DNA of 64,000 bases from Streptococcus suis (lineage in GTDB: Bacteria; Bacillota; Bacilli; Lactobacillales; Streptococcaceae): contig NZ_POJD01000358.1 of assembly GCF_002960445.1 (NCBI RefSeq), positions 1-64,000 on the forward strand, read 5' to 3'. Position 1 is the first letter of the stretch. Each line of letters starts with the position of its first letter. The position numbers were made by a program, and so were the translations under genes. The notes beneath the pieces were generated by a model that searched no databases, had not been told where the DNA came from, and worked only from the letters and a program-made list of their open reading frames with translations. Below are positions 31,582-61,575 of this stretch, in pieces.

Positions 31582-31614
31582 TTTATAGAGCAGTATCATC
31601 TCATTCTATAAAGC

Positions 31615-31695
31615 ACACAATTCCTACGCTAGTTTTAACTAGATCAGGTTCGAGGATTTCGCAGTTGCGATCTCAGCCGAAGCACTCCTTTGTGT
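31615..31695 (-). ncRNA. TPP riboswitch (THI box)
   Basis: The minus strand carries the conserved CTGAGA and GAACCTGATCTAG segments and the GCGTAGGA end of the THI box, with ACACAA and TTGTGT forming the closing P1 stem. It lies directly upstream of thiT. With TPP bound, the 5' side is occupied, and the downstream CACTCC element is free to mask the thiT ribosome binding site, so control is at translation. No T-run follows, which argues against termination. Confidence 0.93.
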
Positions 31696-31715
31696 ATATA
31701 TTTTATTAGAAAACT

Positions 31716-48871: not shown

Positions 48872-48960
48872 TTAGCAAATCGAGGGAGTAGCTAACGGAA
48901 TTTTCCGTGGTAGTGTCGTCATTCCGAAAATCGTTTCCGGCACTATCTTAAATAGCGAGA
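48872..48960 (+). ncRNA. yybP-ykoY manganese riboswitch
   Basis: The transcript starts near 48876 and carries the GAGGGAGTAGC segment followed by a stem (ACGGAA/TTCCGT), a second stem region (TAGTGTCG ... CGGCACTA) and the return strand ATAGCGAG. This matches the yybP-ykoY arrangement known in front of streptococcal mgtA. A terminator stem directly follows. Mn2+ binding should favour antitermination. Confidence 0.85.
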
Positions 48961-48989
48961 CTTGTTTTAATAAAACAGGTCTCTTTTTT
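48957..48989 (+). terminator. Riboswitch-controlled terminator before mgtA
   Basis: GAGAC plus TGTTTT pair with AAAACA plus GTCTC, followed by six T. Its 5' arm touches the end of the riboswitch aptamer. Confidence 0.85.
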
Positions 48990-57612: not shown

Positions 57613-57623
57613 AATAAAGTACT

Positions 57624-57696
57624 GCTGGTTTAGCTCAGTCGGTAGAGCGCATCCATGGTAAGGATGAGGTCGCCGGTTCAATCCCGGCAACTAGCA
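57624..57696 (+). tRNA. tRNA-Thr (anticodon GGT)
   Basis: 73 bases. The acceptor arm GCTGGTT pairs with AACTAGC with one G-U; D arm GCTC/GAGC; anticodon stem CATCC/GGATG with loop ATGGTAA, anticodon GGT; T arm GCCGG/CCGGC with loop TTCAATC. CCA is not encoded. It stands alone with its own promoter and terminator. Confidence 0.97.
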
Positions 57697-57709
57697 TAAA
57701 ATAAGCTGA

Positions 57710-57736
57710 AAAACCCTTGAAACACAAGGGTTTTTG
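57710..57736 (+). terminator. Terminator of tRNA-Thr
   Basis: AAACCCTTG and CAAGGGTTT arms, then TT. Confidence 0.85.
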
Positions 57737-57776
57737 TTATGTCTGCCCCAAATTCTCCTCTGATATCAAAAAAATC

Positions 57777-57804
57777 TTGACTTGTCAGTTTATTATGTTA
57801 GAAT
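57777..57804 (+). promoter_or_regulatory. Promoter of the exporter leader
   Basis: TTGACT (57777-57782), 16 bases, TAGAAT (57799-57804) with TG one base before it. Confidence 0.75.
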
Positions 57805-57835
57805 AGGGCTTAGAAAAAAGAAAGGAGTAAAACAA

Positions 57836-57913
57836 ATGAACACACAACTTGTCCTTCAGCAAGCTATTTTTTATCATACACTCCTTTCTAAGCAGGAAAA
57901 CAGGGCTCATTGA
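57836..57913 (+). CDS. Leader peptide of the BmrCD-like exporter operon
   Basis: A 25-codon reading frame (MNTQLVLQQAIFYHTLLSKQ, then ENRAH) with a strong AAAGGAG ribosome binding site 8 bases before its ATG and a promoter ~30 bases further up. It ends well before a terminator hairpin (58037-58070) that precedes the transporter gene. In Bacillus the bmrB leader peptide controls bmrCD by ribosome-mediated attenuation in the presence of translation inhibitors; this looks like the streptococcal counterpart in position and design, not in peptide sequence as far as I can tell. Confidence 0.6.
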   Translation: MNTQLVLQQAIFYHTLLSKQENRAH

Positions 57914-57961
57914 AAGACTTTTGAAGTTTTCGTGGGCCTACTCTGGAATAGTGGGAAAGTC

Positions 57962-58040
57962 AGGCATGTCTTATCATGGTCAGGTGGGCTTTTCAGGGCT
58001 ATTCGAGAGTTGGTCTATTTTTGTGGACTGAGCCATGCCT
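57962..58040 (+). promoter_or_regulatory. Predicted antiterminator pairing
   Basis: AGGCATG (57962-57968) is complementary to CATGCCT (58034-58040), which includes the first four bases of the terminator's 5' arm. Forming it would break the terminator. Confidence 0.5.
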
Positions 58041-58070
58041 AGGTGGAGTGATAGACACCTAGGCTTTTTT
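58037..58070 (+). terminator. Attenuator terminator before the exporter genes
   Basis: GCCTAGGTG (58037-58045) and CACCTAGGC (58056-58064) pair perfectly over 9 bases, followed by six T, 39 bases before the first exporter start. Confidence 0.85.
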
Positions 58071-58108
58071 GTGCTTAGAAAGGAATAGTTTTAACTTAAA
58101 GGAGAAAT

Positions 58109-59836
58109 ATGTTTAAATTGATATTTGATTACGTCAAACAACACAAGTGGCTCTACTTGCTGGTTGTTGTGACCTTGATTATTTACGATATAACCCTCTT
58201 GATACCAACGCAGATTATTCAGAGGATGGTGGATACGCTGACCAAGAATGGCTTGACTGAGCGGATTTTAGTCCAAGAGATGGGCCTCTTGCTTTTGGTG
58301 ACCTTTCTCAATTATGGGATGGGTTTTATCTGGCATCTTAAGCTTTTTCAGGCTTCGGTTAATTTCAAATTTGATATGCAACAACGAGCCTTTAAAAAGA
58401 TGGTGACAATGCGGACACCTTTTTATGAAAAATTTCGGTCTGGGGATGTCATGACCCGATTTTCTACGGATGTCGATGGGCTGATGGAGATGGTCGGCTA
58501 TGGGCTCATGATTGTGGTCTATTCCGGTGGTATGTTGGCATTTATCATTCCTACCATGCTTTTGATTGACTGGAAGATTTCCTTCCTGGCTATCTTACCG
58601 ATGATTTTTATGGCAGTTGCTTTCTTTTTCATTGGTCGCAAGCAGGATTTGGCTATTGATGCCAACCGTGAGGCAGTTGCACAGCTCAATAATGAGGTCT
58701 TGGAAGTTGTCGAGGGTATTCGTGTAACCCGTGCCTATAGCAAAAAGGCAACTCAAAAGGGGCAGTTTCAGGCTCGAACCAAGGAATTGGCGGATGGTGG
58801 GGACCGGATTACTACCCTGCAATCTCTTTATAACCCCTTGGCTACGGTCGGTCTGGGTTTGTCGACTATCTTTGTCTTGGTGCTTGGAGCAGGGGCAGTC
58901 AAGTCTGGTCAGCTTAGTCTGGGGCAGGTCATCGCCCTGCAACTCTATGTCAGTTCCCTCCTAGAGCCTTTCTGGACCCTGGCGGATTTCATACTAGTTT
59001 ATCAGACAGGTAAGACTTCATTTGAAAAACTGCAGGAGCTGATTGAAACAGGAGATGACTTGGAAGTGGATGGCTCGGTAGAAATAGCCGAGCTAGATAG
59101 TATTTCTTTCAAGAACTACAGCTTTAGCTATCCTCAGTCGGACCGTCCGAGTTTGCAGGAGATTAACTGGACCTTGAAAGCCGGTCAGACAGTCGGGATT
59201 GTTGGGAAAACGGGTTCCGGCAAGACCAGTCTGGTTAGACAATTGTTACGTCAGTATCCAGTTGGGCAGGGTGAGTTTCTTGTTAATCATCAGTCTGTCC
59301 TTGACTTCAAACGCTCAAGCCTGGAGCAAAAAATTGGCTATGTTCCCCAAGAACACATTCTCTTTTCAAAATCTGTTGGGGAAAATATTGCCTTTGGTAA
59401 GCGTGACAGTAGTTTGGAAGAAATTGAAGCGGCTATCGCAACCGCAGCCTTTAGCCAGGACTTGGAGCGGATGAGTCATGGACTGGACACCATGATTGGC
59501 GAGCGGGGTGTGTCTATTTCTGGCGGTCAGAAACAACGGATTTCTATTGCGCGTGCCTTTTTACGAGAGCCAGACTTGCTCATTTTAGATGATTCCCTGT
59601 CAGCAGTTGATGCTCGAACAGAAGGCCAGATTATCCAAAATATCCAGAAAGAACGTGCAGGCAAGACCAATGTCATTGTGACCCACCGCCTGTCTGCTGT
59701 CAACCATGCGGACTGGGTACTGGTCTTGGATGAAGGTCGCATTGTAGAAGAAGGACGACCGGCAGACCTGCTAGCCCAAGAAGGCTGGTACTATGAACAA
59801 TACCAGCGCCAACAAAGTCAGGAAGGAGGAGAATAA
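58109..59836 (+). CDS. Heterodimeric ABC exporter subunit, BmrC/YheI-like
   Basis: A 575-residue half-transporter: six-helix membrane domain (about 1-310) and ATPase domain with GKTGSGKTS, VSISGGQKQRISIARAF and LLILDDSLSAVDA. The residue after the Walker B aspartate is Asp rather than Glu, the degenerate site of heterodimeric exporters. Similarity in the membrane domain is to BmrC/YheI and LmrC rather than to PatA. With the next gene it forms a drug exporter; expression is probably gated by the leader-peptide attenuator. The stop overlaps the next ATG region. Confidence 0.9.
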   Translation: MFKLIFDYVKQHKWLYLLVVVTLIIYDITLLIPTQIIQRMVDTLTKNGLTERILVQEMGLLLLVTFLNYGMGFIWHLKLFQASVNFKFDMQQRAFKKMVTMRTPFYEKFRSGDVMTRFSTDVDGLMEMVGYGLMIVVYSGGMLAFIIPTMLLIDWKISFLAILPMIFMAVAFFFIGRKQDLAIDANREAVAQLNNEVLEVVEGIRVTRAYSKKATQKGQFQARTKELADGGDRITTLQSLYNPLATVGLGLSTIFVLVLGAGAVKSGQLSLGQVIALQLYVSSLLEPFWTLADFILVYQTGKTSFEKLQELIETGDDLEVDGSVEIAELDSISFKNYSFSYPQSDRPSLQEINWTLKAGQTVGIVGKTGSGKTSLVRQLLRQYPVGQGEFLVNHQSVLDFKRSSLEQKIGYVPQEHILFSKSVGENIAFGKRDSSLEEIEAAIATAAFSQDLERMSHGLDTMIGERGVSISGGQKQRISIARAFLREPDLLILDDSLSAVDARTEGQIIQNIQKERAGKTNVIVTHRLSAVNHADWVLVLDEGRIVEEGRPADLLAQEGWYYEQYQRQQSQEGGE

Positions 59837-61575
59837 TGAAGGTTTTAGGATTTTTATTGAAGCAAATTGGTCGCGTTAAGTGGCTCTTTACGTTTGCTGT
59901 TATCTGTTACTTAGCAGCTTCTAGTCTTTTGCGATTTGCCCCTCTCATTATTCAAAAAGCCATTGATGGACCTTTAAGGGCCTTGAGTGAAGGCAGACCC
60001 TTCCAAGAAGCCCTTTTCTTGCAGATGGCAAGTCAATATGTGGCCATGATTTTCTTGGGTGCACTTGGCTATTACCTTTCCATGCGGATCTTGATGCACT
60101 CGGCCAATAGGATCGCAGAGTATTTGCGCAACCAGGCCTATGATGTTATGCAGCACCTGCCCATTTCCTATTTTGATGATAAACCTGCCGGTAAGATTGC
60201 CACTCGTATTGTTAACGATACTGAAACCTTGCGCAATCAGTTTTACGGTACTCTTGTTAATGTCTTTAATAGTTTTATTCGCTTGCTTCTTACCTACGGG
60301 ATTGTTTTCTACATCAATCCTAGTCTAGGTTTTGCTCTCTTGCTACTAATTCCAGTCTTTATCGGTATTCAATTTATCTATAAAAAGTTGACCGATAAGC
60401 CTATGAAGGATTTTTACGATGCTCGAAGTGAGGTCAATACTCAGGTCAATGAAACCATGAATGGTGCTAGTTTGATCCAGCTCTATGGTCAGGAAGAGAG
60501 AGTGCTAGCTGAGTTTGAAGCGACAGCAGATAAGATGCGCCTTGCAGATAACCAGATTATCTGGGCCCAATCCTGCTCGACATGGACCTTGACGGAGTTT
60601 CTGAAATTTCTGGTTGTGACAGGGATTTTAACCATTATTGGCTATCAATTCCTACAAGGTCAATCGAGCTTGTCACCGGGTAAATTATTTGTGTATATTG
60701 ATTATATTGAAGGGATTTTTGTGTCCCTTGGTGCCTTGGTCAAGCAGTTTCCAAATCTCCTTCGGTCGATTGAAACAGGTAAGAGGTTGATGGGCTTGCT
60801 GGAAGAAGAAACGGAGCCCGATAGTAGTGCTGAATTGATGGTGACAGACGGTCAGGTGGTCTTTGACCAAGTGACCTTTGCCTACGAAGTTGGCAAGCCT
60901 ATTCTCAAGGACATCTCCATTCAGGCAGAAAAGGGAGAAACCATTGCACTGGTGGGTCACACAGGCTCAGGCAAGTCCTCCATTATGAACCTCCTCTACC
61001 GTTTCTATGATCCTCAGGAGGGGCAGGTTTTGATTGATGGGAAAAATATCCGTGATTATTCCCGTGAGAGCCTGCGCAGTCACATGGGGATTGTCCTTCA
61101 GGATCCCTATCTCTTCACTGGAACCATCGCTAGCAACGTGGCTATGGATAAGGAGAAGATGGATAGACAGGCAGTCATAGAGGCCCTGGAAAAAGTTGGA
61201 GCAGGTCCAATGCTTGCTCGCTTGGAACAAGGTATCGATGAACCAGTATTTGAAAAGGGGTCAACCTTCTCTAGTGGGGAACGCCAGCTAATTGCTTTTG
61301 CCCGCACCCTTTACTCCAATCCCAAAATCTTGATTTTGGATGAGGCGACTTCTCATATCGATACGGAAACAGAAGAAATTATCCAGCACGCTATGGAAGT
61401 GGTCAAGGAAGGGCGGACCACCTTTATCATCGCCCATCGTCTGTCCACTATTCAAAATGCAGACCAGATTTTGGTCTTGGACCAAGGTCGTATTATTGAA
61501 CGTGGCAAACATGAGGAGCTGCTTGCCTTGGGCGGTGTTTATGCGCAGATGCATGAGATACAGGCTAGGGTGTAG
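59836..61575 (+). CDS. Heterodimeric ABC exporter subunit, BmrD/YheH-like
   Basis: A 579-residue half-transporter partner of the preceding gene, overlapping it by one base (TAATG), with AGGAGG upstream. Membrane domain about 1-320, ATPase with GHTGSGKSS, ILILDEATSHIDTETE with the catalytic Glu, and IIAHRLSTIQNAD with the switch histidine. Its signature loop is altered to FSSGERQLIAFARTL. The order of degenerate subunit first and canonical second matches BmrCD and LmrCD. Confidence 0.9.
   Translation: MKVLGFLLKQIGRVKWLFTFAVICYLAASSLLRFAPLIIQKAIDGPLRALSEGRPFQEALFLQMASQYVAMIFLGALGYYLSMRILMHSANRIAEYLRNQAYDVMQHLPISYFDDKPAGKIATRIVNDTETLRNQFYGTLVNVFNSFIRLLLTYGIVFYINPSLGFALLLLIPVFIGIQFIYKKLTDKPMKDFYDARSEVNTQVNETMNGASLIQLYGQEERVLAEFEATADKMRLADNQIIWAQSCSTWTLTEFLKFLVVTGILTIIGYQFLQGQSSLSPGKLFVYIDYIEGIFVSLGALVKQFPNLLRSIETGKRLMGLLEEETEPDSSAELMVTDGQVVFDQVTFAYEVGKPILKDISIQAEKGETIALVGHTGSGKSSIMNLLYRFYDPQEGQVLIDGKNIRDYSRESLRSHMGIVLQDPYLFTGTIASNVAMDKEKMDRQAVIEALEKVGAGPMLARLEQGIDEPVFEKGSTFSSGERQLIAFARTLYSNPKILILDEATSHIDTETEEIIQHAMEVVKEGRTTFIIAHRLSTIQNADQILVLDQGRIIERGKHEELLALGGVYAQMHEIQARV

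Follow-up and report, generated by a model that had tools for sequence, protein, structure and literature searches.

The first 64,000 nucleotides of contig NZ_POJD01000358.1 of Streptococcus suis (hereafter the window) contain two adjacent genes for the halves of an ABC exporter, preceded by a leader that carries a short upstream open reading frame (uORF) and an intrinsic terminator. An earlier note on this DNA had read the leader as a leader-peptide attenuator through which translation inhibitors would induce drug efflux. We describe here the parts of this leader, their distribution in Streptococcus and other Bacilli, and the way in which they may control the exporter.

Subunit A (58109-59836, on the forward strand like all features of the leader; 575 aa) is by its profile matches a TetA(46)/TrexA/BmrC-like ABC half-transporter, and subunit B (59836-61575; 579 aa) a TetB(46)-like one. 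The best NCBIfam models of the pair are TetA(46) and TetB(46), with 834.6 and 824.5 bits; these scores lie below the curated TetAB(46) cut-off of 1250 bits, which makes the exporter of the window a homologue of that system and not a member. The closest relative of subunit A in the PDB is YheI, which we take to be BmrC, and the identity of subunit A to proteins on named S. suis contigs reaches 100%. Judged from sequence comparison, the genes encode a BmrCD-type heterodimeric ABC exporter, as the earlier note had recognised.

The leader opens with a promoter detected by scanning (TTGACT-16-TAGAAT, with an extended -10 in which TG stands ahead of the -10; 57777-57804). Element A, AGAAAGGAGT at 57819-57828, is the Shine-Dalgarno (SD) sequence of the uORF, which has 25 codons (MNTQLVLQQAIFYHTLLSKQENRAH, 57836-57913) and counterparts in other streptococci. 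Late in the uORF lies element B (CACTCCTTTCTAAGC, 57879-57893), whose core CTCCTTTCT at 57881-57889 codes for Leu-Leu-Ser and is the reverse complement of AGAAAGGAG, the leader SD of the window; element A is complementary to 57880-57889 at 10 positions out of 10. The terminator (58037-58070) starts 123 nt past the uORF stop and is composed of a 9-bp stem with arms GCCTAGGTG (58037-58045) and CACCTAGGC (58056-58064), a 10-nt loop and the run TTTTTT (58065-58070). It folds with -17 kcal/mol (z -3.7; one shuffle in 200 is equally stable). A simple terminator scan omitted this hairpin because its 10-nt loop exceeds the loop length allowed by the scan. We refer to the 5' arm together with the loop as T5 (GCCTAGGTGGAGTG, 58037-58050), the predicted alternative partner of B. 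A small hairpin of the folded structure, GGTCTATTTTTGTGGACT at 58012-58029 upstream of the terminator, might at a guess make RNA polymerase pause. The exporter genes have an SD of their own, AAAGGAG, at 58098-58104. Scans and folding confirmed the promoter, the 25-codon frame with its ribosome binding site and the 9-bp terminator with T-run, all of which had been marked by the earlier note.

Conservation of the leader in Streptococcus

The subunit A protein, searched against 197 Streptococcus genomes, matched 73 of them at E ≤ 1e-150, and upstream DNA was examined for 71 of these, excluding one genome whose contig begins within the gene (G006) and one whose match lacks the N-terminus (G015). 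An SD followed by a short open frame with element B lies upstream of the exporter in 69 of the 71 homologues; all 69 leaders have a hairpin and then a T-run downstream of the frame, and 68 have a promoter-like pair under a loose pattern. Since it is present in 69 of 71 homologues, the leader is, as far as comparison of sequences can tell, under selection. For L102, one of the two most distant homologues, the scan offered a sole leader candidate, at -635, which was dismissed as a chance match.

The pattern GAAAGGAG-N(44-74)-CTCCTTTC, which joins A and B through a spacer, occurs in 51 of the 197 genomes, and the reversed control pattern in none. Comparison of coordinates with the exporter matches places 47 of its 52 occurrences at the exporter, while the remaining five (in G056, G041, G161 and G061, and the second of G075) look unrelated. 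Judged by eye, the pattern falls inside the apparent start of a permease gene in G056, G041, G290 and G297, because ATGCGCTCCTTTC or a similar string there belongs to coding sequence; these matches are probably a coincidence.

The uORF peptide follows a different course. All 69 leaders keep the frame open, and 60 of the frames begin with Met-Asn, but the leaders encode 50 different peptides of 19 to 34 residues, and the codon differences between six S. suis-type frames are nonsynonymous in 83 cases against 15 synonymous ones, so that no conserved arrest peptide of the ErmL type is found. The conservation of the frame, on which the earlier note had staked its reading, therefore extends to its openness and not to the peptide, in which that note had located the regulatory logic. 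The core of B is CTCCTTTCT in 48 leaders (read as Leu-Leu-Ser in 47 and in a different frame in one), CTCCAATCT in 16 and a close variant in five. Leucine codons within B are CTC (66) and CTT (50), against a single CTC among 144 in the rest of the same uORFs; B is held in another reading frame in 3 of the 69 leaders, and frames that read Thr-Pro-Phe over B (ACT CCT TTT or similar) occur outside Streptococcus. The CTC skew within B and the retention of B across reading frames argue that its nucleotides are selected. Across the compared leaders, the conserved parts are thus the SD, B and the terminator, which points to RNA rather than peptide.

These observations bear on a leader of the BmrB or ErmL style, in which a ribosome carrying a macrolide, lincosamide or phenicol would stall at a specific peptide or codon context of the uORF. 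The open frame and the frequent Met-Asn start suit such a leader, as does the response of Bacillus subtilis bmrB to chloramphenicol, erythromycin and lincomycin. The shifts of B between reading frames speak against it, and on the strength of the 50 peptides and the nonsynonymous excess we rejected peptide-specific arrest as the main model; with the folding and resistance data presented below, we regard this explanation as unlikely.

A riboswitch that binds the drug, or a leader bound by a protein, with no sensing by ribosomes in either case, would be in keeping with the folding of the leader as a whole, whose structure exceeds chance expectation by far (z -6.7; 0 of 100 shuffles). For their ABC-leaders, one of them from lactobacilli, Naville and Gautheret considered that a protein factor or an aptamer might be involved. 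No Rfam family attained its gathering score in the leader of the window, however; three weak, sub-threshold matches all fell in 57700-57808. The conserved parts named above contain no aptamer core, and the distance from stop to terminator changes from 122-127 nt in most S. suis-type leaders to 16-40 nt in many others. We judge this explanation very improbable.

The arrangement downstream of the leader also varies. In several S. suis-type loci (L035, L036 and L038-L043), about 50 to 640 nt more than in the window separate the terminator from the exporter, the leader being intact, and in the S. parasanguinis/S. australis group (for example L071 and L077) a second terminator-like hairpin stands in tandem before the exporter.

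Pairing partners of element B and the position of the ribosome

The earlier note had proposed that AGGCATG (57962-57968) and CATGCCT (58034-58040) form the antiterminator. Of 15 S. suis-type leaders only 1 has all 7 bp of this pair, which for this reason is not the switch; the conserved pairing joins 57879-57893 with 58037-58050, that is B with T5, at -15.7 kcal/mol in the window. When a 22-nt segment was slid from SD to terminator in each leader and the best pairing with T5 recorded, this scoring gave a best partner that overlaps B for 66 of the 69. Among the three misses, L075 pairs like its relatives and was mislabelled in scoring; the other two are taken up below.

In 19 dereplicated leaders the mean B:T5 energy is -13.9, compared with -10.2 and -10.3 for two kinds of shuffles and -11.8 when partners are swapped between species, and 5 of 20,000 partner permutations are as good as the real combination. 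Reruns gave 0 of 20,000 with 33 leaders, 3 with 19 and 245 with 7. Energies of A:B also lie clearly beyond both shuffles (-15.2 against -9.0 and -8.8), and in the window A:B alone beats them (0 and 0 of 200). Matched changes are found as well: CTTCTCCAATCTC faces AGATGGAGGAG in the S. parasanguinis group, and TCCTTTATCA faces TGATAGAGG in L093 and L100. As B is common to A:B and B:T5, the predicted anti-antiterminator and antiterminator pairings are mutually exclusive. A further element of the window, C (GCTTAGAAAGGA, 58073-58084), lies directly 3' of the terminator T-run and is a perfect 12-nt complement of B; among the leaders displayed, 5 of the 8 S. suis-type ones have GCTTAGAAAGG after the terminator, and none of the 3 others does.

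To follow the nascent RNA, we folded the 19 leaders up to 4 nt past the terminator loop, with no ribosome, with a ribosome on the start region or with one at the stop. The mean number of expected B:T5 pairs is 3.7, 10.8 and 1.2 in these three states, and 1.8, 11.9 and 0.0 in the window. With the ribosome at the start, 18 of 19 leaders have at least 4 B:T5 pairs. Moving the ribosomal P site along the uORF keeps this value at 18 of 19 for codons 1 and 2, lowers it to 13 for codon 3 and to between 9 and 11 for codons 4-10, and brings it to 0 for codons 14-20; the window has at least 4 pairs at codons 1-3 only. The values at codons 4-10 would also allow a ribosome stalled by its peptide to free B, but read-through predicted at codons 1-3 only, as in the window, would be early for a context-specific arrest of the nascent chain.

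Conservation, complementarity, partner matching and this dependence on ribosome position in the nascent RNA were all obtained by computation. Taking them together, we propose, with a probability of about 0.7, that the leader is a ribosome-mediated transcription attenuator of the anti-antiterminator/antiterminator/terminator type; we infer that the uORF is translated, that RNA polymerase terminates at or reads through the hairpin, and that the two processes are coupled. B, being complementary to both the SD of the uORF and T5, would be the element shared by the competing structures, and RNA complementarity and ribosome position would act, the peptide sequence having no part. When the uORF is not initiated, A would pair with B, which is thereby consumed, and transcription would terminate. 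A ribosome running normally through the uORF would cover B near the stop as RNA polymerase arrives at the terminator, again with termination as the result. A ribosome held on the start region would cover A and leave B free to capture the emerging T5, so that the exporter genes would be transcribed. In this scheme the antiterminator must form first, during transcription. Of the attenuator imagined by the earlier note, the leader ORF, the terminator and an alternative pairing remain, as conserved and predicted features, with another pairing and other inducers put in place of those proposed.

Several results weigh against the attenuator model. No comparable leader was found in the two most distant Streptococcus homologues, L101 (G026) and L102 (G021). 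Of the 19 leaders, 7 reach 4 or more B:T5 pairs even when no ribosome is present and 3 do so when it stands at the stop, and L049 shows no switch with the ribosome at the start. With T5 shuffled, the mean number of B:T5 pairs under a start ribosome falls only by half, from 10.3 to 5.3, and at equilibrium the full-length leaders have a mean terminator probability of 0.93 unmasked and still 0.77 with a ribosome at the start (these equilibrium and shuffling figures include, among the 19, one leader with B misplaced, L063). In the window the equilibrium value passes from 1.00 to 0.99; full-length equilibrium folding was accordingly discarded as proof of a switch. Because the terminator wins at equilibrium in most leaders, the switch needs kinetic, co-transcriptional folding. 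As regards pairing, L035 and L060 have a T5 partner that scores better than B, and in the window an insert restricted to S. suis rivals B in this role (-15.4 against -15.7 kcal/mol). The B:T5 pairing of the window is not significant by itself (31 and 23 of 200 shuffles), and with 3 leaders the permutation test is empty (6,520 of 20,000); nor are the permutation values strict probabilities, since the leaders are related by descent. The partner permutation of A:B is weak (803 of 20,000), as would follow if its role at the ribosome keeps A from changing.

The dominance of the window's terminator at equilibrium, whatever the state of the ribosome, would suit a simple terminator that is constitutively read through in part, as described for patAB; A:B would then only damp translation of the uORF, and no drug would be sensed. 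Over-expression of patAB through terminator mutations is in line with this. Such a terminator leaves the conservation of the uORF, the conservation of B and the matching of B with T5 unexplained, and we hold it to be distinctly improbable.

Candidate inducing signal and known systems

As a ribosome held at the start would free B, the leader can be taken to sense the arrest of ribosomes on the start codon or close to it, a role suited to tetracyclines. Four homologues were scored with the Tet(46) subunit A model: L121 of S. australis (1299.8 bits) and L122 of S. parasanguinis (1322.9 bits) pass the cut-off, L136 (1039.7) and L120 (753.9) miss it, and all four have the leader frame upstream of the exporter. 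A primer sequence from the TrexAB paper, located just before trexA, matches L070 and L152 exactly, both from genome G175, which indicates that the trexAB locus has the leader MNNSTKRMNFLENTLLSSRKS. According to that paper, deletion of trexAB lowers the minimal inhibitory concentration (MIC) of tetracycline 16-32-fold and of tigecycline 4-fold, leaves those of erythromycin and clindamycin unchanged, and shifts two-fold those of minocycline and gentamicin in one strain and of doxycycline and ciprofloxacin in the other. The unchanged MICs also count against stalling at a specific peptide, and the macrolides, lincosamides and phenicols suggested by the earlier note seem less likely inducers than drugs that arrest ribosomes on start codons. 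Tetracycline has this action in Escherichia coli, where it induces topAI via the toiL uORF, as does retapamulin. By analogy, tetracyclines are likelier inducers than macrolides or lincosamides; we would give even odds that they are the natural trigger of the leader, and the exporter would in that case be inducible by drug.

The principle of a stalled ribosome acting on an anti-antiterminator/antiterminator/terminator hierarchy is, by comparison with vmlR and in outline bmrB, already known. The likenesses and differences below refer to the available parts of the respective descriptions. The leader of B. subtilis vmlR has a uORF, the same hierarchy of structures and induction tied to drugs that stall initiating ribosomes, and cplR of Clostridioides works on a similar principle; the vmlR uORF, however, has 3 codons and lies inside a stem, its SD is single-stranded and the gene encodes an ABC-F factor, whereas in the streptococcal leaders the SD, by pairing with the distal end of a uORF of 19-34 codons, would itself serve as anti-antiterminator, and the gene encodes an ABC exporter. 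B. subtilis bmrB, compared by description, likewise places a leader ORF and a terminator before a homologous heterodimeric ABC exporter, bmrCD, but BmrB is 53 aa long, the terminator lies within the coding region and induction is by 50S drugs, tetracycline being unmentioned in that part of the source; the peptide in S. suis has 25 aa instead of 53, the terminator lies downstream of the stop and B is an anti-SD. With toiL of topAI-yjhQ the leader would share induction by ribosomes stalled at the start codon by tetracycline or retapamulin; toiL acts on the translation of a toxin-antitoxin operon and on its termination by Rho, with no intrinsic-terminator switch in the account available.

Among exporters, TetAB(46) and TrexAB belong to the same family, and the homologues scored or matched to these names carry the leader. 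In the TrexAB paper the word 'leader' is absent, and 'attenuat' occurs once, in the reference list. The patAB attenuator of Streptococcus pneumoniae also consists of an intrinsic terminator before a heterodimeric ABC exporter, but the transcript is predicted to begin 67 nt before the gene and no leader peptide figures in the available description. The 'ABC-leader' of Lactobacillus gasseri and L. johnsonii (Naville and Gautheret 2010) is a predicted terminator/antiterminator before a multidrug exporter, for which the portion available describes neither a uORF nor a mechanism; by analogy, it may be a far relative of the S. suis leader. Literature searches, among which that for tet(46) was weak, found no leader before tetAB(46) or trexAB and no anti-SD uORF attenuator in streptococci. 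As far as these searches reach, what is new is that the anti-antiterminator strand is the SD itself, that the peptide is not conserved and that such leaders are found across an exporter family.

A leader of this kind would offer a testable cause for the low-grade tetracycline resistance of streptococci that straddles the breakpoint: an RNA switch would keep a chromosomal exporter silent until the drug, by acting on ribosomes, triggers it. The leader could sense translation arrest with no conserved peptide, and a search that relies on conservation of the leader peptide would therefore overlook such switches; a simple signature for finding more of them is a short ORF that is preceded by an SD and carries the reverse complement of this SD close to its end.

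Spread beyond Streptococcus

In an order-wide set of 295 genomes, the exporter was found at E ≤ 1e-130 in 102, of which 27 are Streptococcus, and upstream DNA was taken for 59 of the 75 other genomes and for one Streptococcus (G244). A uORF with SD that holds CTCCTT occurs in 29 of the 59 non-Streptococcus regions and in none of 20 shuffle rounds. Self-complementarity between the SD and the uORF tail exceeds codon shuffles in 29 of 59 regions of the same order and in 9 of 20 from other Bacilli orders, these 20 being part of the exporter matches there; among the long ORFs of the window the count is 0 of 26. Sequences differ in these other orders (in L287, for instance, GGAGGGTTTGATA faces TTGTCAGGCCCTCC), and CTCCTT within a uORF with SD is seen in 1 of their 20 upstream regions (L293).

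Other results are less favourable. The A-N-B pattern is less clean order-wide than within the genus, with 18 of 295 genomes against 3 for the reversed control. The best partner of T5 overlaps the A:B site in 19 of 45 rows, a minority outside Streptococcus; these rows are 46 hand-picked uORFs minus one that has no terminator, and the 19 include the Streptococcus G244 and one single-base overlap. For this reason we claim the full three-way switch for Streptococcus only. A Bacilli-wide family of peptide-independent start-stall switches, in which the uORF tail would be both the reverse complement of its own SD and the antiterminator, is a tentative idea to which we give somewhat less than an even chance. 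If it is true, a ribosome parked on the start codon would license transcription of BmrC/TetA(46)-type exporters, whichever drug parked it, and the uORF, SD partner and terminator sequences would have drifted while the three-way complementarity persisted.

In seven loci of other Bacilli orders (L276, L278, L282, L284, L286, L290 and L292), a further small frame led by an SD lies downstream of another uORF. Its start lies some 110-140 nt upstream of the first exporter residue in the alignment, and it often ends in Glu/Asp-Ser-Gly or similar; it is possibly a second control element.

Elsewhere in the window, a tRNA-Thr gene (57623-57697) followed by a terminator-like hairpin (57709-57735) occupies the upstream side of the leader, and two RNAs score above the Rfam gathering score: a TPP riboswitch at 31604-31699 on the reverse strand and the Streptococcus sRNA SSRC10 at 48879-48988 on the forward strand.
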